From NCBI GenBank assembly GCA_017512175.1, contig JAFWHA010000001.1, forward strand, positions 1 to 43,086: DNA of 43,086 nucleotides, read 5' to 3'. The notes beneath the pieces were generated by a model. That model made no database searches and was not told the origin of the DNA. It worked only from the letters and a program-made list of their open reading frames with translations. The number at the start of each line of letters is the position of its first letter. Within the stretch, counting starts at the first letter, position 1. Source of the stretch: Candidatus Saccharimonadota bacterium. Lineage in GTDB: Bacteria > Patescibacteriota > Saccharimonadia > Saccharimonadales > Saccharimonadaceae. The position numbers and the translations under genes were made by a program. This document shows, one piece after another, positions 2-40,740 of the stretch.

Positions 2-829
2 CAGGATATGACTACTACTGTATGTAATTCTGTCTATACTCCTACTAATGCTACTGAACTTACTACTCCTAAGGCCATTATGATAGATAAACTAGCTGCC
101 CAAGCAGGAAAGTATGAAGTTATATCAGACAATACTAGTCCTAATGTCGCACAAAGCACATTGTCAGACATTAGAGATGGTAAAACTTACACTGTTAGAA
201 AGATGGCTGATGGGAATTGTTGGATGGCAGAAAACCTGAAGTTTGAGTTGCAGGCTAATAAGACTTATACTGGAGTTAATAACACTACTGGAAATACTAT
301 TACGTTTAACACTGGAGCCGTATGTGGTAATGGTAATACCAATGCAGCTTGTATTATGAATGGAAATACAGCTTACGGCAGTACTTATGATACTTGGTAT
401 TACAATTGGTACGCTGCTACTGCTGGAAGTGGAACATCTAGTATGACTATGGATAGCGGAGATGCAACAAACTCTATCTGTCCTGCACATTGGAGATTAC
501 CAACTAACTACACTAACAAACAATATCCGAGTGGTGGAGCACCAAAGTCTTGGGGGTCACTCGTAAAAGCTTATGGGATTTCTCCAGAAAACCACGCTTC
601 GGACTCTGAATGGCAAACATTAGTAGCGCAGCCATTTAGTCTTCCCCGCGCCGGCTACTTCCGCTCGGGTGCCTTCCAGAATAACGGCCGCGGCTACTGG
701 TGGTCTTCTACTGCTTATAGTACTGCTACCTACGCTTACCACCTGGTCTTCTACACGACGCTCGTCTACCCGCAGAGCTACTACGACTACAAGTACGACG
801 GGTTTAATGTCCGTTGCGTCTCCATCTAA
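2..829 (+). CDS. DGR target protein 1: FISUMP-domain surface protein, 5'-truncated by the window edge
   Basis: The reading frame is open to the left edge, and its first residues align with an internal stretch of the second target protein (QDMTTTVC here against QEMTTAVC there), so the N-terminus lies outside the window. The visible part is a FISUMP-type domain (Fibrobacter succinogenes major paralogous domain, a C-type-lectin-like fold): YTVRKMADGNCWMAENL, then ICPAHWRLPTNYT, then the C-terminal GYWWSSTAYS and GFNVRCVSI blocks. The last 185 nt are variable repeat VR1 of the DGR whose template lies at 34927. By analogy with the second target it is probably membrane-anchored and displayed outside the cell, with the VR forming a ligand-binding face. 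The ligand is unknown. The gene is separated from its retroelement by about 34 kb of housekeeping genes. Confidence 0.9.
   Translation, partial: QDMTTTVCNSVYTPTNATELTTPKAIMIDKLAAQAGKYEVISDNTSPNVAQSTLSDIRDGKTYTVRKMADGNCWMAENLKFELQANKTYTGVNNTTGNTITFNTGAVCGNGNTNAACIMNGNTAYGSTYDTWYYNWYAATAGSGTSSMTMDSGDATNSICPAHWRLPTNYTNKQYPSGGAPKSWGSLVKAYGISPENHASDSEWQTLVAQPFSLPRAGYFRSGAFQNNGRGYWWSSTAYSTATYAYHLVFYTTLVYPQSYYDYKYDGFNVRCVSI
645..829 (+). repeat. Variable repeat VR1 of the diversity-generating retroelement
   Basis: The segment aligns to the template repeat at 34927-35108. About 18 substitutions lie in 13 AAC codons of the template and change template adenines only (AAC to CGC, TAC, CAC, GTC, CTC, AGC, GAC). 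Non-adenine mismatches appear only in the last ~20 nt (cgT, gtC, tcC, Atc, taA), the expected place of the initiation-of-mutagenic-homing boundary. VR1 has one extra AAC-derived codon in the Asn-run region (five codons at 776-790 against four in the template). The change from template to VR turns an Asn-rich sequence into a Tyr/Arg/Ser/Asp-rich one. Confidence 0.95.
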
Positions 830-3584: not shown

Positions 3585-4099
3585 TAGCTCTCCTTTATTT
3601 CGTCTAATCTAGCATTCCGACGTATGTGACGTTCCTCTCCAGAAAACTCTGTTTTAAGGAACGTTTCGACAATCTCATCAACTAGCATTCGTCCATCCGC
3701 AGCTTTTTGCTCGCCAGTAAAATCTGCCGAAAGACAGAGCACATTAGCATCATTGTGCAGTCTACCAATCTTAGCCAACTCTGTATCATAAGCCGCAATC
3801 GCCCTAATTCCAGTAAATCTATTCGCTTGAATAGCTACTCCGTGAGCCGAGCCACAAATCAGTATTCCTCTCGAGCCCTGATGTTCTCGTACCGCTTCAG
3901 CGACCTTAATTGCTGCATCATTATAATCATCATCTTGATCAAGAATAAAAGGCCCAAGATCCGTCACTAGATAATCTTCGCCAGATTCGTTTTTTACATT
4001 AATCTGCTCCTCCGAAGGCGCCGCACCAGAAAGCGCCGCTACTAAACGTTTCTTTAGCTCAAAGCCGCGATGGTCTGCTGCGATGAAAATTTCTGGCAT
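3584..4099 (-). CDS. rpiB: Ribose-5-phosphate isomerase B
   Basis: A 171-residue RpiB/LacA-family protein. AADHRGFELK at residues 7-16 binds the phosphate, CGSAHGVAIQANR carries the catalytic Cys82 in the usual position, and HNDANVLCL is the conserved C-terminal block. It isomerises ribose 5-phosphate and ribulose 5-phosphate. Compared with typical 145-150-residue RpiB it has an acidic insertion of about 20 residues around 28-60. It lies 4 nt after gap and overlaps rpe by one base, so the three enzymes are translationally coupled. Confidence 0.92.
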   Translation of the reverse strand: MPEIFIAADHRGFELKKRLVAALSGAAPSEEQINVKNESGEDYLVTDLGPFILDQDDDYNDAAIKVAEAVREHQGSRGILICGSAHGVAIQANRFTGIRAIAAYDTELAKIGRLHNDANVLCLSADFTGEQKAADGRMLVDEIVETFLKTEFSGEERHIRRNARLDEIKES

Positions 4100-4103
4100 T
4101 CAA

Positions 4104-5213
<1,110 letters not shown>

Positions 5214-15571: not shown

Positions 15572-15640
15572 AGAGGAAATCAGCCCGAAAAGTATCCGTA
15601 TGGATGCCTGCTCGAAAGAGATAGGGCTGATTTCATTTTA
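15572..15640 (+). ncRNA. Candidate short hairpin RNA or bidirectional terminator
   Basis: TTGCAT (15537-15542), a 17-nt spacer and TGA-TAGTAT (15560-15565) precede a 10-bp stem AAATCAGCCC/GGGCTGATTT (15577-15586 with 15624-15633) that encloses an ATCC/GGAT hairpin, followed by T-rich sequence. It may be a small RNA of about 65 nt or simply the terminator of the minus-strand DUF3800 gene, whose stop lies at 15638. Confidence 0.35.
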
Positions 15641-17113: not shown

Positions 17114-17794
17114 TTAGTCCCCACAGAATATCGAAATACACGCCTTTGCGTATTTACGCGTAAAACGCAAATTCAGTCTGGGAAATATTCTAGTGACTTT
17201 TTCTGCATTAATTTCCGGATGCGACAGAACTATAACTCCACCAGACACAAGCAGTTTATCCGCATTACAAAATTCAGTTACATCAAATTTATCATATGGC
17301 GGATCTATCAAAATCAAGTCGAAAAATCGCCCAGTATTAGTAGCACCATCCCTAGCATCTCGAACATCCCTAGCATCTCTGACACCTCTGGCATCTCGAA
17401 CATCTCTGACATCTCTGACACCTCTGGCATCTCGAGCATTTCTAGCATCTCTAACATCCCCAGTGCCTCCGTCATCTTCGTTTAAAAACCTCTGTACCGT
17501 ACTCTTTATTACCTCAACCCGCGAATTAACTCCTAGTGCCCTTACATTAGCTTTTATTGCCTCAACCGCCTTCGGATGGCTTTCCACCATCAAAACACTT
17601 CTAGCGCCTCGAGAAAGCGCCTCAAGCCCTAATGCTCCGCTCCCAGCATATAGATCTAGCACTTTTGCATCTTGTATCACCCCTGATACAGAGTTAAATA
17701 GTGCCAGTTTTTCCCTATCCCCCATCGGATGGGTGGTCTTATTAAGTGGCAAAATAAGTTTTCGACCCCTATATTCTCCAGAAGTAATCCGCAT
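17114..17794 (-). CDS. rsmD: 16S rRNA (guanine-N2)-methyltransferase RsmD with a repeat-filled insertion
   Basis: From the ATG at 17794 (AGAAGG 6 nt upstream) the protein has 226 residues, against about 180-190 for the family. MRITSGEYRGRKL, the SAM-binding LDLYAGSGALGLEALSRGA (residues 46-64) and catalytic DPPY (164-167) identify RsmD, which methylates G966 of 16S rRNA (E. coli numbering). Residues 107-153 are an inserted run of Arg-Asp-Ala/Val/Gly triplets just before the strand leading to DPPY. Removing it restores normal length and motif order. The start lies 1 nt after the stop of the upstream gene, so the two are coupled. Confidence 0.92.
   Translation of the reverse strand: MRITSGEYRGRKLILPLNKTTHPMGDREKLALFNSVSGVIQDAKVLDLYAGSGALGLEALSRGARSVLMVESHPKAVEAIKANVRALGVNSRVEVIKSTVQRFLNEDDGGTGDVRDARNARDARGVRDVRDVRDARGVRDARDVRDARDGATNTGRFFDLILIDPPYDKFDVTEFCNADKLLVSGGVIVLSHPEINAEKVTRIFPRLNLRFTRKYAKACISIFCGD
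17344..17460. repeat. Coding minisatellite in rsmD
   Basis: Degenerate 9-bp units (forms of CATCTCGAA, CATCTCTGA, CACCTCTGG, CATCCCTAG) are repeated about a dozen times in frame. They encode the R-D-A/V/G triplets of the RsmD insertion. Unit length is a multiple of three, so copy-number changes keep the frame. Confidence 0.85.
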
Positions 17795-22451: not shown

Positions 22452-22603
22452 AAGCTGATACGCTTCACAGGGGTTCCACTGATGAGAATTAGTGGAGTGT
22501 GGAGACTACATTAAAACAAAAACAGCGGATTAAAACAAAACAATGTGCCCCAGGGTGGGCGCGGATCAGCAGATGAGCCTACAACAAGTAGGCTCATCCT
22601 TTT
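22452..22603 (+). ncRNA. Unassigned structured non-coding RNA (~150 nt)
   Basis: A consensus promoter and a perfect terminator (11-bp stem around AACAA, 22572-22601, then CTTTT) bracket a non-coding stretch. A closing stem pairs GCTGATACGC (about 22454-22463) with GCGGATCAGC (22561-22570), with one mismatch. Inside are a TCCACT/AGTGGA hairpin, an ACATT/AATGT helix enclosing two A-rich repeats (both ATTAAAACAAAA), and a GCCC/GGGC hairpin. The closed layout recalls 6S or other housekeeping RNAs, but I see no diagnostic motif of 6S, SRP, tmRNA or RNase P. Confidence 0.6.
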
Positions 22604-22690
22604 AGGCTCATCCTTTTAGGCTCATCCTTTTTAGGCTCATCTTTTCAGGCTCATCCTTTTAGGCTCATCCTTTTAGGCTCATCCTTTTAG
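22591..22690 (+). repeat. Terminator 3' arm repeated seven times
   Basis: GGCTCATCCTTTTA recurs at 22591, 22605, 22619, 22634, 22648, 22662 and 22676 (period 14, once 15). The first copy is the 3' arm and T-tract of the terminator whose only 5' arm is at 22572-22582. Confidence 0.9.
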
Positions 22691-32935: not shown

Positions 32936-33080
32936 TCACACTTTGCAAGGTTTTTCAACCCTATTTTCTCACACTTTGTAAGAATCTATACCCCCATCTT
33001 CTCACACTTTGCAAGGTTTTTCAACCCTATTTTCTCACACTTTGTAAGAATCTATACCCCCATTTTCTCACACTTTGCAA
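32936..33080. repeat. 33-bp tandem array upstream of the DUF4143 gene
   Basis: TCACACTTTGYAA occurs five times at exactly 33-bp steps (32936, 32969, 33002, 33035, 33068). The 20-bp intervals alternate between two sequences, so the higher-order unit is 66 bp. On the minus strand a copy reads TTGCAA, 18 nt, TATAGA, a promoter-like pair present twice. Confidence 0.9.
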
Positions 33081-33124
33081 AAATCGACATCCGACCAAGA
33101 TTCATACTCCTATAGAAAAATCGA

Positions 33125-33240
33125 GTAGCACACTTCGCTAATTCTGCACATTCCACTAGTTCTGTACATTCCATTAATTCTGCACATTCCACTAATTCTG
33201 TACACTTCGCTAATTCTGTACACTCCGCTAATTCTGCAGA
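33125..33240. repeat. 18-bp minisatellite at the 3' end of ftsA
   Basis: About six to seven degenerate copies of CTAATTCTGTACACTCCG. The ftsA stop codon and its last two codons belong to the first copy (minus strand, CAGAATTAG), and each full copy repeats a similar Gln-Asn-stop. Confidence 0.85.
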
Positions 33241-34502: not shown

Positions 34503-34523
34503 ACTTACATTATAGCATATCTA

Positions 34524-34552
34524 TTACAAAGGATGAAAAATAATTCTATAAT
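34524..34552 (+). promoter_or_regulatory. Promoter of the DGR template RNA
   Basis: TTACAA (34524-34529), a 17-nt spacer and TATAAT (34547-34552), divergent from the ftsA promoter. It is the only good plus-strand promoter seen before the template repeat. Confidence 0.55.
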
Positions 34553-34557
34553 ATAGT

Positions 34558-35136
34558 TGTGGAAATGAGGTATCTGGTTGGGGAACAGATCCGCCTTCCA
34601 GACCATTTCTGTGAGGAAAGAGGCATCCTTGAACTTTTATATTCGAGGTATCAGACAGTTTACATCGCACACACGCGTCGATGTATCTTTTAAATTGTCT
34701 CTTTTGGAACTGGATACTTATTGTTGTACTCTGCGATAACCTTGTGCACTAGTTGTGTGACCTCGGGTTGGCCTTGCGTTGCAGTACTAGGCAGGAATAT
34801 TAAACTGTTAGAGTATGTAGTATCCAAAGGCCCGAGTGGCCCGTTGCCGAAGTTATTCTAGGCGATAGCTCAAGAGTTGCGGTATGTTTGCCCGTCCATA
34901 CTGTTAGAGTAGTAGGTAGTGAGTATCCCGCGCCGGCTACTTCAACTCGGGTGCCTTCCAGAATAACGGCAACGGCAACTGGTGGTCTTCTACTGCTTAT
35001 AGTACTGCTACCAACGCTTACAACCTGAACTTCAACACGACGAACGTCAACCCGCAGAACAACAACAACAAGTACAACGGGTTTAATGTCCGCTGCGTGT
35101 CAGTCTAGCCGTTCCCAGTTCCCCTACATATTCCTC
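34558..35136 (+). ncRNA. DGR template RNA with a ~370-nt structured leader
   Basis: From the promoter at 34547 the non-coding transcript runs through the template repeat. The leader begins with a stem GAAATG/CATTTC (34562-34567 with 34604-34609) enclosing TCTGG/CCAGA. An ACATCG/CGATGT hairpin and a 12-bp direct repeat ACTGTTAGAGTA (34804 and 34900) follow, the latter just before the TR. No reading frame with coding features is present. The RNA would be antisense to any read-through from the RT gene, which faces it. The 3' end is not defined. Confidence 0.65.
34927..35136 (+). repeat. Template repeat (TR) of the DGR
   Basis: The 182-nt core (34927-35108) matches VR2 exactly except at adenines, and VR1 likewise apart from its last ~20 nt and a 3-nt insertion. 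Identity with VR2 continues past the shared stop codon to 35136. Read in the VR frame it has 14 AAC codons that differ in one or both VRs, four in a row at 35058-35069; AAC allows the widest amino acid range under adenine mutagenesis. The IMH-like segment GGGTTTAATGTCCG is common to TR and both VRs. Confidence 0.97.
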
Positions 35137-35212
35137 ACATCAAAATAATTTCCACGATGACGGGCACCAAAAACCAGAATAAAGAAATCAGCATCACGAT
35201 TAGTGCCAGAAT

Positions 35213-36388
35213 CTACTGCTTCGGGTAATCCCAGCCCACTGATTCGAATACTTTTTGACACAATTTTTCTCCGCGCAGTTTACTACAATACCCTAAATAC
35301 GAAGCGATAGATTCGGTCGAGCCGGATACTCCAGATTCGAATTTACGCGCCGCCTGATAGAAATTATCTTTGAATCTTCTTCCCGGCACTCGGAAAAACG
35401 GATATACCACCGCCCCTAAGAACGGTACGCCTTTCTTCACCTCTTGGACATGAGTCTTTTTCGGATGCATTTTAAGTCCTATGTTCTGCAAATATCTCTC
35501 TATTACTTTGACGTCATTTAGAGCAATGTCTTTCTTCTCTGCCGGCACTACTAGATAAAAATCATCTACATATCTTCCGTAGTGTTTATATCCGAGATCC
35601 ATCGTTACAAAACGGTCGAGCTGCGAAAGATAAATATTCGAAAGCAGTTGTGAAGAAAGATTTCCAATCACGATACCCTTCCCCTTAGGCTGATAAAATA
35701 GGCTTTTACTATCTGGCAATAAGTCCCAAAGCCTCACTGGCGGACGAATCTTCACTCCTTTTACCGGATCGTCCATAATTATCTCCCGCCAGAGATATTT
35801 TAGCAGTCTATAATGCACGCCTCTTTTTGGAAACTGCCTTTTTAGTCCCCAACAGATGATACAATATAGCCTCTCTCGCGGTAAACTCATAAAATATCCC
35901 TGTATATCCATCTTAATTATATAGGTTTCTTTCCGATAATTATTAGAAACCGAGCGGATGTCATGCTCTAATCGGTCTATCCCAAAATGTGTGCCCTTTC
36001 CTTTACGGCAAGAGGAGGAATTATAAATAAATCTCTTGTCCCACCAGTTCGCACACATATTATGTAAGAAATGGTGCACTACCCTATCTCGAAATGGCGC
36101 CGCAAAAATTTCTCTCACAACTGGTCGCGTTACGATAAACGCAATTCCGCGGCTAGGTTTGTAGCGTCTATACATGATGTCATCCGCCAAAAGTTCAATG
36201 TTTTCGATGTATCGCACTTCAAAAGCATTTTCGTCAGCAGTTTTTAGCTTCCCCTTCCTTGCCTCGAAAAATGCCCTTGTCAACGCTCTGATTAGCCAAG
36301 CCCTATCCACCCTGAAATATGGCTGTTCCAGCGCCTCCAACTCGTCGGAATCATTAAATGACCATTCTGTATCTGCTTCCACCATCAT
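35213..36388 (-). CDS. DGR reverse transcriptase
   Basis: A 391-residue RT. The catalytic Asp161 lies in IIKMDIQGYF and the YVDD box at 273-276. Motif 4 is IGNLSSQ (241-247), with the S-Q ending that marks DGR RTs in place of the QG of group II introns. No maturase or nuclease domain follows. It would copy the template RNA into adenine-mutagenised cDNA that replaces VRs. It follows the Avd-like gene by about 70 nt. The start region is three 23-bp repeats, each offering ATGs; the frame used here begins at the last pair (36388 and 36385). Confidence 0.97.
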   Translation of the reverse strand: MMVEADTEWSFNDSDELEALEQPYFRVDRAWLIRALTRAFFEARKGKLKTADENAFEVRYIENIELLADDIMYRRYKPSRGIAFIVTRPVVREIFAAPFRDRVVHHFLHNMCANWWDKRFIYNSSSCRKGKGTHFGIDRLEHDIRSVSNNYRKETYIIKMDIQGYFMSLPRERLYCIICWGLKRQFPKRGVHYRLLKYLWREIIMDDPVKGVKIRPPVRLWDLLPDSKSLFYQPKGKGIVIGNLSSQLLSNIYLSQLDRFVTMDLGYKHYGRYVDDFYLVVPAEKKDIALNDVKVIERYLQNIGLKMHPKKTHVQEVKKGVPFLGAVVYPFFRVPGRRFKDNFYQAARKFESGVSGSTESIASYLGYCSKLRGEKLCQKVFESVGWDYPKQ

Positions 36389-36431
36389 TCTGTATCTGCT
36401 TCCACCATCATTCTGTATCTGCTTCCACCAT
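36363..36431. repeat. Three 23-bp repeats at the RT start
   Basis: GATGGTGGAAGCAGATACAGAAT is repeated three times on the minus strand (described by positions: ATGs at 36431, 36411/36408 and 36388/36385). Because 23 is not a multiple of three, the first two copies encode MVEADTE followed by TGA, which overlaps the next ATG. Only the last copy opens the RT frame. Confidence 0.9.
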
Positions 36432-36459
36432 ATACATTTACCTATGCTTCTAGCGCATA

Positions 36460-37425
36460 TTATTTCTGAGTCTTTGCCATTTCCTTTAAAAACTCCATCG
36501 GAATTTGTTTGGATTCCCGGCTTTTCTCCGCAATCTGGCGCGGAGTCTGTTTATCGTTTTCATCATAGGTTGGTACAATTTCATCATCTTCACCAGTTAT
36601 CACGCTTCGCCGCTTTGGCATTCTTGATGTTCCATTAGCTTTCCTAATCTCTTTCCTGCGCTCAGTGCTAATTAACTTTTTTATCACGTTGCAGATATCT
36701 GCCGCTTCGTGTGCCTTAGACGGACGCGTACATTGTAAGTTTACAATCGAAATCAAGTCCGCCATTATCTGATAGTTCACTTCGTCCAGTTTCTCCAGAC
36801 ATTCCATCGGCGTAATCATTCCATTAAGTCCCAAAATCAAAATCTGGTTTAACTCCATCACCGAGCTCAACAGACCATTTCCTACGACTATTTTGAGATC
36901 GGTCGGAAAATTCTTCGTAATAGTCCTAATAATGCGTTGTAATTCCCGAATTCTATTACTCAGTTCCGGCCAAAGTACTTTCGGAATCAGCATGTTAATC
37001 ACCGTGTCCCAGTCTGCTTGCTCGGCTCTAGAAATCTTAGAAAAGACTTCGTCCGTCACTCTATTGTTGAGACAAATTGCCACGAGCTCATCAGTACTAT
37101 CTGGAGATAGTGCCATTCCCAAACGCTTAGCGCCCATAGTTACAGCTTTGACATCACGAATAAAAATCACGCCGGTCTTAGATATGTATTCGTAATCATC
37201 ATCTTCTCTGATGTTTACGGTTTTCTTCAGGCGCGGCGCGAACAAGTATTTGTAATAGAGGACTGATTTTCCAATTATTTTCCACCAATCCCCATCCGAA
37301 TGAAAGAGAAAAATCCTAGTGAAATTATCTTTCTCAAGTCCTGTAACGAGCTCCTTGCGCCTTAGATACTCTGTCTTTTCCTTGAGATGAATTGAGTCGC
37401 GTCTTATTTCTCCGGCTTTAGTCAT
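36460..37425 (-). CDS. Avd-like four-helix-bundle accessory protein with an extra N-terminal domain
   Basis: A 321-residue protein directly upstream of the RT. Residues about 155-255 carry the pattern of Avd / four-helix-bundle proteins of DGRs (RIIRTITKNFPTDLKIVVGN, then MELNQILILG, LEKLDEVNYQIMADL). These form pentameric barrels that bind RT and template RNA. Avd is normally about 125 residues; here about 150 residues precede it (FLFHSDGDWWKIIGKS and AKRLGMAL, with a faint likeness to MutS domain I) and a basic, disordered tail follows (KRRSVITGEDDE). GGAGGATAA precedes the ATG and is itself the last unit of the hairpin array. Confidence 0.75.
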   Translation of the reverse strand: MTKAGEIRRDSIHLKEKTEYLRRKELVTGLEKDNFTRIFLFHSDGDWWKIIGKSVLYYKYLFAPRLKKTVNIREDDDYEYISKTGVIFIRDVKAVTMGAKRLGMALSPDSTDELVAICLNNRVTDEVFSKISRAEQADWDTVINMLIPKVLWPELSNRIRELQRIIRTITKNFPTDLKIVVGNGLLSSVMELNQILILGLNGMITPMECLEKLDEVNYQIMADLISIVNLQCTRPSKAHEAADICNVIKKLISTERRKEIRKANGTSRMPKRRSVITGEDDEIVPTYDENDKQTPRQIAEKSRESKQIPMEFLKEMAKTQK

Positions 37426-37426
37426 T

Positions 37427-37673
37427 TATCCTCCATTCTATTGCATAATTTTATACTACATTTCACAGGATATTTTTATACTATACTTTACAGGATAATT
37501 TTATCCTACGTTTCATAGTATATTTTTACACTACGTTTTGTAGGATAATTTTATGCTACGTTTTGTAGCATATTTTTATACTACATTTCATAGTATATTT
37601 TTTATCCTATGTTTTGTAGTATATTTTTTATCCTACATTCTATAGGATAAAGTTATGCAACATTTCGTTGCAT
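37427..37673 (-). repeat. Array of ten 25-bp hairpin repeats ending in the avd ribosome binding site
   Basis: On the minus strand, units of the form TATNCTA, 6-8 nt, TAGNATA, A/T spacer recur about every 25 bp. Units at about 37673, 37649, 37597 and 37568 are perfect hairpins whose variable base pair changes in a compensated way (G:C, C:G, A:T, G:C). Units that do not self-pair can pair with a neighbour, for example an outer TATCCTAC/GTAGGATA across two units. The last unit contains the GGAGGATAA of the avd-like gene. Confidence 0.8.
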
Positions 37674-37676
37674 AAA

Positions 37677-37736
37677 CCCTGTGCCTGCAAGCAGGCACAG
37701 GGTATGGCGAAAGCCTTCTGCTGGAAGTCTTTCGCC
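37677..37736. terminator. Two strong hairpins between target 2 and avd
   Basis: CCCTGTGCCTGC pairs with GCAGGCACAGGG (37677-37702), and GGCGAAAG/CTTTCGCC encloses CTTC/GAAG (37706-37736). On the minus strand the T-tract after them is weak (GGGTTTATG), so they may attenuate rather than fully stop transcription from the target gene into avd-RT. Confidence 0.5.
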
Positions 37737-37819
37737 GCTTCTTTTTCACTTTGTCAACGTTTCATCTTCATGGTTTACTTTAACTTATCCTACACATTGT
37801 AGTATTTTTTCTCCGTGGA

Positions 37820-38029
37820 GAGGAATATGTAGGGGAACTGGGAACGGCTAGACTGACACGCAGCGGACATTAAACCCGTTGTACTTGCCGCTGCGGCCCT
37901 GCGGGGAGACGAGCGTCGTGCCGAAGTCCAGGTGGTAAGCGTAGGTAGCAGTACTATAAGCAGTAGAAGACCACCAGTAGCCGCGGCCGTTATTCTGGAA
38001 GGCACCCGAGAGGAAGTAGCCGGCGCGGG
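37820..38029 (-). repeat. Variable repeat VR2 of the DGR, with shared 3' flank
   Basis: 182 nt of VR (38029-37848) align to the TR without gaps. About 21 substitutions all lie at template adenines, in 13 AAC codons, which became CTC, CGC, TAC, CAC, GAC, GGC, TCC and AGC. Identity with the TR continues through the stop codon and a further 28 nt to 37820. Just beyond is a short TCTCC/GGAGA hairpin. Confidence 0.96.
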
Positions 38030-39980
38030 GAAGATTGAATGGGAAGGCTTCTAGTATCTGGTATTCGGAAGTAGTGGAATGGTTAGCAGGATTGATACCG
38101 TAAGTGTTTAGCAGGGAGCCCCAAGATTTCTGCGCGGAAGTAGATACGCTATTAGTGTAGTTAGTTGGGAGTTTCCAGCCGATTGGGCAGATGGAGTATC
38201 CAGCATCACCGCTAGATGTTACCATATCTGACTTACCAGAGCCGGCCGTAGCTGCAGACCAAGAGTAGTACCAAATGTTATTCCAGGCCGCCGCATCGCC
38301 AGTATTACCAATATTGTAGGCAGTATTACCGTTCAGAGCGTAAGTATTGTCATTATTAGTTAGGTTAGAGGCCTTGACCGGAGTCCAGATGCCAGCAGAA
38401 GTGATATTACCGTAAACTGCATCCGTTCTGGAAGTAGTTACTGCTTTACCGTTCTGAGATACTTCCACTGGCTGTGCAGTCAAGCTAGAGCTCTTGTTCA
38501 TGCCAGGAGTTGTGTAGTTCTTATAGAGCGGAAGATTAAGGTTTTCTGTCATCCAGCAGTTCCCATCAGCTAGTTTCCTGATAGTATAGGTCTGGGCATT
38601 AGAGCTACTTGGAGCGACTTTGTTCGTGATGCTTCCAGTACCATCTTTACCACGCCAGTCGTAAAGCACTCTGGTCGGAACGTAAGCAGAAGAGCCTGCA
38701 TGAGAGCCGTTAGTGTCTTCCTCTTGTGCGGTGTTAGATGGAGTCGTAGCGGTGGAACAGACAGCCGTCGTCATCTCTTGCATATAAGTGATGTTCCAGA
38801 AAGTAGGAGTAGGAGAAACATAAGTCACTTCGTTCTCGTAAGACTTATCATATAGCGGGATAGAAGTGTTGACCGTATAGGTCCCTTCGATTAGCGCCGG
38901 AGAAGTACAACGAATCGTTACGTTACCAGTGTCCGTAGTGATGCTATTCACTGTACAAGTGCCAGTCTTTGTCGTATCATCTTTCTTCGTTAGAGTAACC
39001 GTAACATCAGAGTTGGAGAAAGCATAGTTCGTATGCAAACTAGTGACGATAGTTACATCCTGTCCACCAATCGGACTGAGTGAAGTCGGATAAACGCTCG
39101 CTTTATCAAAAGTAGACACCGAAGAATCTGGCACAGCGAAATAATTAACCACCCCGACATACTGACCAGAATCCATAGCTAGATTCGCTTTTGCACCATA
39201 GTAAACGTTGAAGGTATCGCCAGTTGCAGGAGTAGCCGACTCGGAACTCTTAACCTTAATCGCAGAGGAGCGAAGCGGCGCCTGAGCGAATTTATTCGTA
39301 CTAATCAGTGCTTTACCAGATTCTCCAGTACTCGATTCGCCATTACTATCGACGTAAATTTCGTCGAAGTTTGCAAAAGTATCTGGAATACCAGCTTCGC
39401 GACTATTTCCGCCTAGTACTGCAAATCCCCAAGTATTGTCCGCAAGAGCCGTAGGAGCAGCCGTCGTACCAGTAGTTGGCGAAAGGAAATTGCTTTCCGT
39501 ACTAATACCATCTTTGTAGAGCGCGTTACCCGGATGTGTCGTATCATAATCATTTAGCTGATCCATCGAGAAATAGAGGTCATAGCCGTCTGGATTATCC
39601 GTAACAATTTTGACTGCATCATGTGCCACTGCGAGAGCACCATCTGGTGTAGCAGAAATATCCATAACGATATTATCTGCAGACGAAACTGACGTAGAAT
39701 AATCAGTTCCCTCTATATTGAAGAAAAGCGTGTCGGCATTGGTAATACTTTGTGGCGCAAAAACGGAGGAAGCCACAAATGCAGAAACGAATGCCATTAG
39801 GAACACAACCACGACACTCACCACCCACCGCTGATTACCTTTTAGCGATAAGCCGTTCCCGTGCGCCTTGCTACCCCTATTCATCCAAGATTTTCTACCG
39901 ATAATCTTGTTTTTACCCGAAAAGCTGCTCCCCGATATTCCTTCTTGAGCGCTTCCCTTGTATTTTAGTTTGTTTGACAT
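37848..39980 (-). CDS. DGR target protein 2: membrane-anchored FISUMP surface protein
   Basis: A 710-residue protein from the ATG at 39980 (GGAGG 5 nt upstream). A basic cytoplasmic N-terminus leads to one membrane helix (about 52-75) that anchors the rest outside. Residues about 80-300 form a beta-rich region. An Ig/IPT-like domain follows (YPTSLSPIGGQDVTIVTS to VTYVSPTPTFWN). The FISUMP domain occupies the C-terminal ~310 residues (YTIRKLADGNCWMTENLNL, ICPIGWKLPTNYT, GYWWSSTAYS, GFNVRCVSV). VR2 makes up the last 60 residues. It is the likely first gene of a target-avd-RT unit and probably binds surfaces or host cells (inference). Confidence 0.93.
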   Translation of the reverse strand: MSNKLKYKGSAQEGISGSSFSGKNKIIGRKSWMNRGSKAHGNGLSLKGNQRWVVSVVVVFLMAFVSAFVASSVFAPQSITNADTLFFNIEGTDYSTSVSSADNIVMDISATPDGALAVAHDAVKIVTDNPDGYDLYFSMDQLNDYDTTHPGNALYKDGISTESNFLSPTTGTTAAPTALADNTWGFAVLGGNSREAGIPDTFANFDEIYVDSNGESSTGESGKALISTNKFAQAPLRSSAIKVKSSESATPATGDTFNVYYGAKANLAMDSGQYVGVVNYFAVPDSSVSTFDKASVYPTSLSPIGGQDVTIVTSLHTNYAFSNSDVTVTLTKKDDTTKTGTCTVNSITTDTGNVTIRCTSPALIEGTYTVNTSIPLYDKSYENEVTYVSPTPTFWNITYMQEMTTAVCSTATTPSNTAQEEDTNGSHAGSSAYVPTRVLYDWRGKDGTGSITNKVAPSSSNAQTYTIRKLADGNCWMTENLNLPLYKNYTTPGMNKSSSLTAQPVEVSQNGKAVTTSRTDAVYGNITSAGIWTPVKASNLTNNDNTYALNGNTAYNIGNTGDAAAWNNIWYYSWSAATAGSGKSDMVTSSGDAGYSICPIGWKLPTNYTNSVSTSAQKSWGSLLNTYGINPANHSTTSEYQILEAFPFNLPRAGYFLSGAFQNNGRGYWWSSTAYSTATYAYHLDFGTTLVSPQGRSGKYNGFNVRCVSV

Positions 39981-40057
39981 ATTACCTCCGTTTTTTACAC
40001 ACACGCGGCGGCAACAATATCAACAATATTACCATTACCACATGCGAATTTGAATCT

Positions 40058-40151: not shown

Positions 40152-40246
40152 AAAAAAGAGGGCGGTGTCCCGCATATTACACTGCAGGTCCTGCCCTCAT
40201 TAGCCCTAATTATGCTCCTATTGTTTTTCAAAATCAAGAATTTTAC
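40152..40246 (-). repeat. Direct repeat copy A: 3' end and terminator of the nuclease gene
   Basis: About 90% identical to 40647-40740, 494 bp away. It covers the last codons of the nuclease and a terminator hairpin closed by GAGGGC/GCCCTC, with TTTTTT following on the minus strand. Confidence 0.85.
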
Positions 40247-40607
40247 CGCTTTTCGTGATGATTTTGAGTCGTTTTAGGTTTTTCTTGCTTGCAAATTGTT
40301 TTCCTAGTTCTCTCAGACACTTAGTTTGATGCCGCTTTGTGTGACGAAGATCGATGATGATATTCCGTGATTGCTTCAGTGCTCTCTGGATGATATTTTC
40401 CATCAACTGGTTGCCTTCGCCAAGCGGAGCTTTCATCTCCCACTCAAGTCCGTTCATCTTAATATCAGGAGTGTGCACTCCCGGAGTGTTACTCGTAGGG
40501 ATGAGGTCAACGTCAAAACCTTGTTCTGTCAGAAAAACCACAGTTGCATTCTCGTTAGTCTTCAAGACTACACCGTTCGGAGTGATTTTACCTCGTTTTC
40601 TCATCAT
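40218..40607 (-). CDS. Stand-alone CdiA-CT-type nuclease
   Basis: A 129-residue protein. ENATVVFLTEQGFDVDL, then TPDIKMNGLEWEMKAP (a PD-(D/E)xK-like core), LMENIIQRALKQSRNIIIDL and a terminal IITKSGKILDF follow the pattern of the C-terminal tRNase domains of contact-dependent inhibition proteins (CdiA-CT, PF18451-like) and related phage or ICE nucleases. It has no secretion signal or carrier. No immunity gene is adjacent. The start has AAAGG at a long distance, so expression may be weak. It might act in competition, defence or as a toxin; the function is inferred from pattern only. Confidence 0.65.
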   Translation of the reverse strand: MMRKRGKITPNGVVLKTNENATVVFLTEQGFDVDLIPTSNTPGVHTPDIKMNGLEWEMKAPLGEGNQLMENIIQRALKQSRNIIIDLRHTKRHQTKCLRELGKQFASKKNLKRLKIITKSGKILDFEKQ

Positions 40608-40646: not shown

Positions 40647-40740
40647 AAAAAGAGGGCGGTGTCCCGCATATTACACTGCAGGTCCTGCCCTCACTAATCT
40701 CAATTATACTCCTATTACTTCTCAAAATCAAGAGTTTTAC
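40647..40740 (-). repeat. Direct repeat copy B: orphan gene end and terminator
   Basis: The second copy of the 40152-40246 sequence lies immediately upstream of the nuclease gene. It includes the same GAGGGC/GCCCTC terminator, which would shield the nuclease from upstream transcription. Confidence 0.85.

Follow-up and report, generated by a model that had tools for sequence, protein, structure and literature searches.

One template repeat for at least 14 FISUMP loci: a diversity-generating retroelement in a Saccharibacteria genome

The window studied here, the 43,086-nucleotide contig JAFWHA010000001.1 (C12) of the Candidatus Saccharimonadota assembly GCA_017512175.1 (G000; 17 contigs, 611,729 bases, 72% complete), carries a complete diversity-generating retroelement (DGR). 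We hold with high confidence that this element acts in cis and in trans, one template repeat (TR) serving at least 14 loci with FISUMP domains, namely seven complete or contig-cut genes and seven short open reading frames (ORFs) referred to below as headless cassettes. The evidence consists of adenine-specific differences between the TR and the variable repeats (VRs) at 14 loci, the concerted identity of the other VR positions, an intact reverse transcriptase (RT) and a partner protein with the Avd fold. The DGR itself is well supported, and the headless cassettes may in addition be switched by recombination. A preliminary description of the window had proposed a complete DGR with two targets in a genome of the candidate phyla radiation (CPR). 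The host assignment was borne out (the same-genus relative G095 agrees in its coordinates, with the RT at 3685-4806, with Candidatus Saccharibacteria bacterium RGIG2364 from goat ileum), and so was the completeness of the DGR; the number of targets was not, being at least 14 instead of two. The suggestion that one TR serves dispersed surface proteins, with more targets elsewhere in the genome, was confirmed by the genome-wide search described below.

Results

The TR, the RT gene, the accessory ORF and both window VRs are all located where the preliminary description had placed them (Table 1), in the order TR, RT, accessory gene and target gene 2, with target gene 1 lying 34 kb away. A search of the whole genome with the TR found 14 VRs on nine contigs at 81-91% identity: one each on C1, C4, C6, C9, C10 and C16, two on C12, and three each on C3 and C11. 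A further TR match on C15 is weak (38 bases), and 14 is a lower bound, many contigs ending in FISUMP genes. The VRs end near stop codons, at the 3' end of coding genes. Differences were counted per VR at the 46 A sites and 105 non-A sites upstream of the terminal GGGTTTAATGTCC block. When the 14 VRs are pooled, 263/644 A sites are changed as against 58/1470 non-A sites (Fisher p about 1e-97), and the changed adenines fall largely in the 15 AAC codons (250/420, compared with 13/224 elsewhere). Upstream of the terminal block, all substitutions in the two window VRs are at template adenines, as had been claimed. This bias lies well outside what chance would give and is the hallmark of a DGR. Non-adenine differences in the VR core, or a disrupted RT, had been named as findings that would speak against a DGR; the former are absent from both window VRs, and the RT is undisrupted in this genome and in the majority of its relatives.

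Table 1. Features of the DGR and its targets in the window.
Feature	Position	Strand	Description
Target gene 1	2..829	+	FISUMP protein, 5' part lost at contig start; TIGR02145 1.3e-14
Dyad junction	142..173	+	TAATGTCGCACAA-AGCACA-TTGTCAGACATTA within target gene 1; marks the 5' edge of headless cassettes elsewhere
VR1, remote target	645..829	+	17/46 A and 0/105 non-A sites changed; one extra codon in the AAC run
TR transcript (probable)	34555..35158	+	predicted ~370-nt structured 5' leader, TR, and a 3' tail complementary to the 5' end (GUGGAAAU/AUUUCCAC)
TR	34927..35108	+	non-coding; 15 AAC codons in the targets' frame; ends in terminal block GGGTTTAATGTCC... (IMH*-like)
DGR reverse transcriptase	35213..36388	-	391 aa; IGNLSSQ and YVDD motifs; PF00078 (RVT_1) 1.1e-15; PHROG 1423 RT 1.4e-77; BPP-1 bRT 8ub7 E 2.5e-22
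Accessory protein	36460..37425	-	321 aa; N-terminal alpha/beta domain (about 30-120) and Avd-fold four-helix domain (148-262)
Palindromic array	37425..37670		about nine 25-bp units, directly upstream of the accessory-RT operon
VR2, cognate target	37848..38029	-	21/46 A and 0/105 non-A sites changed; TR homology continues to 37820
Target gene 2	37848..40004	-	transmembrane-anchored FISUMP surface protein, 718 aa; probable ATG at 39980; TIGR02145 6.9e-10, Fib_succ_major

The positions that do not change are equally informative. Third codon positions at non-A sites are 92% identical from VR to VR; in the stretch of FISUMP coding sequence that immediately precedes the VR the figure is 56% (62% at codons with equal amino acids), and outside the VRs the FISUMP genes are at synonymous saturation (synonymous divergence, dS, about 1 or more). 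Therefore, all 14 loci were overwritten from one TR while the genes themselves diverged. In the 3' part of the VRs, the A-site alleles of different VRs are mutually independent (p 0.54), as separate mutagenic events predict. VR1 and VR2 share alleles at 12/14 variable sites in their 5' part (maximum-pair test p 0.013) and at 5/17 in their 3' part, a distribution that fits partial conversion starting at the 3' side. It could be argued that only VR2, and perhaps VR1, is live and that the remaining 12 are relics which arose when genes that had already diversified were duplicated, or when one VR converted another. Such an origin would agree with the 1-8 non-A changes found in each remote VR, VR1 and VR2 having none, and with the 5' part common to the two window VRs. 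However, it would not leave synonymous sites saturated in the flanking FISUMP sequence while the third positions within the VRs stay nearly constant, nor A-site alleles that are mostly independent from VR to VR, and we regard it as very unlikely.

Action of the DGR in cis and in trans, with one TR serving all 14 loci, is the preferred reading, and some points weigh against it. Several remote VRs carry 4-8 non-A changes, which suggests that some of them may have been last rewritten long ago; Avd is not detectable in the accessory protein by sequence; and the VRs are known from one assembly of one strain, which leaves present homing activity unproven. Positions 62 and 71 of the TR are T here, A in the TRs of relatives and multi-allelic in the VRs, and 14/58 non-A changes fall there. 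The VRs therefore seem to keep a record of an older TR, the simplest reading being that the TR has lost adenines at 62 and 71 and that the VRs still carry mutations made from its earlier form. The FISUMP genes designated C17, C3b, C5, C6b and C11b were considered as further TR targets and rejected, as their non-A sites differ as much as their A sites.

As in BPP-1, a TR transcript would be made and then bound by the RT and the Avd-fold protein. The pattern of changes shows that the TR has been copied with errors at its adenines and that the cDNA has replaced the VR at the 3' end of FISUMP genes, in cis and in trans, at the 14 loci; the complex would do the copying, and homing may still be active at present. 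The RT is intact and its best solved relative is the BPP-1 DGR RT (8ub7); its IGNLSSQ aligns with IGSLTSQ of BPP-1 bRT and conforms to the DGR-type [ILV]GxxxSQ motif. At the RT start, three exact 23-bp repeats (36363-36431), each with ATGGTGGAAGCAGATACAGA on the minus strand, were observed; their slippage could shift the RT start or frame.

The preliminary description had called the accessory protein Avd-like, a label that holds by fold and fails by sequence match. No sequence match was found in Pfam, NCBIfam, PHROG, PADLOC or PDB, and the fold assigns the C-terminal half only. In the AlphaFold (AF2) model (predicted local distance difference test, pLDDT, 86), residues 148-262 superpose on BPP-1 Avd 4dwl with a VIA Z of 15.8 and a root-mean-square deviation of 1.5 A. 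The model scores Z 15.9 and 15.7 against the Avd chains of 8ub8 and 8ub7, and <=13.7 against proteins outside the Avd/S23-like group; Foldseek gives a TM score of 0.82-0.87 over the Avd chain. The modelled protein is a longer fusion, with the Avd four-helix bundle in its C-terminal half and an extra N-terminal domain. Homologues of the accessory protein adjoin the RT in many same-genus genomes. Residues K24, E31, N34, S54, D75 and D77 are invariant in its N-terminal part, which by eye looks MutS-like, a lead only; Pfam gave no match in 18 members of the family. The 25-bp units of the array upstream are imperfect palindromes with matched arm changes (TATGCTAC/GTAGCATA, TATCCTAC/GTAGGATA), and the array is a candidate operator array that may control the DGR.

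The GGGTTTAATGTCC terminal block, which resembles the initiation of mutagenic homing sites IMH/IMH*, is near-invariant in 13/14 VRs, the remaining VR being truncated. The leader 5' of the TR (34555-34926) is long, structured and non-coding, and is preceded by a promoter-like ATTACA-18-TATAAT at 34523-34552, although such matches are no commoner than in shuffled sequence. Folding of the TR region gives a minimum free energy z of -5.6, and the equivalent region of G032 gives -7.4. As a family-wide trait, a structured TR RNA was rejected: very stable in G000 and G032, pairs spanning the TR beat all shuffles in only 5/24 relatives. Rfam gave no match near the DGR.

The FISUMP identity and membrane anchor proposed for the target were borne out by TIGR02145, Fib_succ_major and a transmembrane anchor. 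Family profiles match as Fib_succ_major in 14/16 members and as Lcl_C/DUF1566 in 2/16. FISUMP has no sequence relative in PDB, and on the question of a C-type-lectin-like fold the AF2 model has a pLDDT of only 43. Four targets are complete and anchored, with about 700 residues (C12 VR2, C9, C11 at 152 kb and C3 at 27 kb), and three are cut by contig ends (C12 VR1, C10 and C16). Target gene 1 is not complete and belongs to the latter, its frame being open to base 2 where the contig starts. Given the anchor, the variable FISUMP domain would be displayed on the cell surface, where such targets might bind partners such as the host cell, phage or mucosal ligands. A long 5' leader, flanked by inverted repeats of the GTGGAATACCTAC...GTAGGTATTCCAC type, is common to the complete FISUMP genes (upstream in L101, L106, L109 and L110); Rfam gave no match in the leaders of L101, L106 and L109.

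The other seven VRs lie in the headless cassettes (C1, C3 at 1.2 kb and at 36 kb, C4, C6, and C11 at its left end and at 190 kb). These ORFs run for about 230 codons and lack a conserved start codon, a signal peptide and a hydrophobic segment. All of them begin at one point inside the FISUMP domain (VAQRTLSDIRD or VLKSTLSDIRD), and in front of most of them stands a non-coding leader of about 75 bases that they have in common. In the part upstream of the VR, their ratio of nonsynonymous to synonymous substitution (dN/dS) is 0.16, equal to that of complete genes, and the cassettes are therefore not decaying. This purifying selection might mean that the short ORFs use non-standard start codons and are expressed alone, yielding small proteins that are secreted or cytosolic, and the leader does contain a stretch resembling a ribosome-binding site (GGTGGGAG/GGAGGGAG). 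However, the start codon is not conserved (some have TTG, others TCG or TTA), a signal peptide and a hydrophobic stretch are lacking, and the reading frame starts exactly at the dyad junction described below; we find independent expression unlikely.

Other explanations of the leader were tried and rejected. As a tRNA-derived attachment site it fails, with no tRNA at the cassettes and no pattern match; as a programmed frameshift or standard start it offers no conserved start codon or usable frame; and as a mobile element it has a 73-bp form with inverted ends in G019 but no matching right end after the G000 cassettes. The G019 stretch (C38 from 6779; L130 1501-1573) has the ends TTTTGCGACATT/AATGTCGCAAAA, is similar to the cassette leader and stands before an ATPase-like gene rather than a FISUMP gene; it is possibly a mobile or regulatory form of that leader.

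The edge of the cassettes is a dyad junction with 13-bp arms around a spacer, TAATGTCGCACAA-(6 nt)-TTGTCAGACATTA. The arms are imperfect inverted repeats (8-11/13 matched here, up to 12/13 in G032), and the pattern had 0 matches in five shuffles of the 43-kb window. Inverted pairs of junctions occur at C3 429/1843 (81-bp arms, 100% identical), C3 36712/38325 and C6 1560/2862, and in G032 at C2 40856/42215 and C9 76167/77470; each of these five loci has a single 6-bp spacer, not always the same from locus to locus (CGCACA, AGCACA, CGTACA, GCTACA and CGCACA). At four contig ends (C3, C4, C11 and C17), a headless cassette and the N-terminal part of an anchored surface protein gene face each other head-to-head, the latter being cut off by the contig end. 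Junction loci often coincide with contig ends or lie close to them, one contig stopping 22 bp beyond the junction, and the junction and cassette architecture recurs in G032 and G019. As in shufflons, alternative C-terminal segments share inverted copies of a short dyad-symmetric site, and on sequence grounds the junction looks like a tyrosine-recombinase inversion site.

The cassettes might thus be a reservoir for shufflon-like or Xer-type inversion at the junction, which would join alternative DGR-diversified C-terminal domains to one anchored N-terminus; here the case seems to us evenly poised. The common junction and its absence from shuffled controls, the spacer identity within each locus, the inverted pairs, the head-to-head arrangement, the selection on cassettes that have no start, the like architecture in the two relatives and the contig that stops just after a junction all argue for it. 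However, no alternative orientation was observed in the assembly contigs, equal spacers are also explicable by local duplication or conversion, and four cassettes, those with the spacer AGCACA, have a degenerate left arm. Xer-type genes are present in the genome, namely a conserved Xer (C9; 73-91% identical in relatives), a second, XerC-like gene (C14) and an element-type integrase (C11), but no dedicated recombinase was seen to adjoin the sites, the conserved Xer and the second XerC-like gene sitting elsewhere. The latter was rejected as a dedicated invertase, being present in G000, G032 and G095 and absent from G019, so that its presence does not follow the sites. No serine recombinase or invertase was found in the 72% complete genome. 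Expression of the cassettes by recombination at the junction, through Xer-type inversion or cassette exchange, could accordingly go either way. A fuller scheme of two-layer diversification, in which the C-terminal domains of FISUMP cassettes, silent as well as expressed, would be mutated by the DGR while Xer-type inversion at the junction would pick the domain joined to the anchor, is put forward tentatively. If it is true, variants are made in silent cassettes and switched on later.

Discussion

The prevailing view is that members of this phylum mostly live attached to other bacteria, and little is settled about their host recognition or phage evasion. For a genome of 0.6 Mb it is an unusual outlay to place 14 or more FISUMP domains under a single mutator, and this points towards contact surfaces on which the pressure to diversify is strong. 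RT homologues occur in 85/147 same-genus genomes drawn for comparison (each labelled G with a number), and FISUMP domains are common in the genus. Five relatives, G032, G095, G019, G034 and G027 (the last two with two DGRs each), have the gene order described here and A-only TR-VR changes, with 18-29 of 53-60 A sites and 0-2 of 104-142 non-A sites changed. Among all FISUMP loci fetched from those genomes there is one adjacent VR per TR; the unusual trait of the present genome is that one TR reaches 14 FISUMP domains. The locus also makes trans-acting retrohoming testable, with its 14 sites of graded non-A divergence, the older-TR record in the VRs and the five one-target relatives.

Systems of this kind are known, but the form seen here is unusual: a single TR has at least 14 trans targets, and half of these are headless cassettes that are under selection and have a dyad junction. 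It resembles the BPP-1 DGR in its [IV]GxxxSQ RT, Avd-fold partner, A-specific TR-to-VR changes, AAC-rich TR and VR at the 3' end of the target. It differs in that the TR is on the strand opposite the RT and 3' of it, the accessory protein is a fusion with an extra N-terminal domain, the target is a FISUMP protein, and 14 targets are reached in trans where BPP-1 has one. In Treponema denticola, one TR and one RT likewise serve several dispersed surface targets with A-specific changes, the number per TR ranging from two to seven among isolates (PMC4891356); the 0.6-Mb genome described here has at least 14, of which half lie in headless cassettes. Cyanobacterial DGRs also reach remote targets whose 3' end is homologous to the TR, and the available portion of that report presents the variable proteins as mostly predicted cytosolic sensors and describes no junction-bounded cassettes (PMC7517822), whereas the targets here include anchored FISUMP proteins. 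The host lineage and the cellular nature of the DGR agree with those of other Patescibacteria/CPR DGRs, whose targets (clade 2) are typically without recognisable transmembrane or other domains (PMC8144416), unlike the anchored FISUMP proteins of this genome. In Thiohalocapsa PB-PSB1 there are 15 targets, but the DGR loci number nine (PMC10907252), and the large VR numbers in a computational survey include repeats with few A changes (PMC6642488).

The possible switching has its closest parallels in the MBA/UU172 inversion of Ureaplasma (PMC3047005) and in R64-type shufflons, where short inverted repeats within surface-protein genes, start-less cassettes and Xer-type recombinases in the genome are likewise found; no DGR is involved there, and inversion here is only suggested by the architecture. 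Our search gave no paper in which FISUMP is the target of a DGR and none on a DGR joined with DNA inversion or shufflons; as subscription papers were mostly outside the search, this is weak evidence that none exists. Should the cassette layer prove real, it would link DGR mutagenesis with DNA inversion, a link that we have not found described.

Other observations

An Rfam DUF3800-IX RNA is present at 15576-15638 of the window (57 bits; gathering 36.8). Minisatellites with units of 9/18/36, 14, 33/66 and 18 bp lie at 17347-17458, 22589-22690 and 32936-33238, in a genome that is very compact. At 40218-40607, a CdiA_C-like ORF of 129 aa is found between two 94-bp repeats (40153-40246 and 40647-40740; 89% identical). 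A second RT is encoded elsewhere in G000, at C11 142847-144373 (L110 1848-3374); it is AbiP2-like (PADLOC E 8e-140) and a candidate defence RT.

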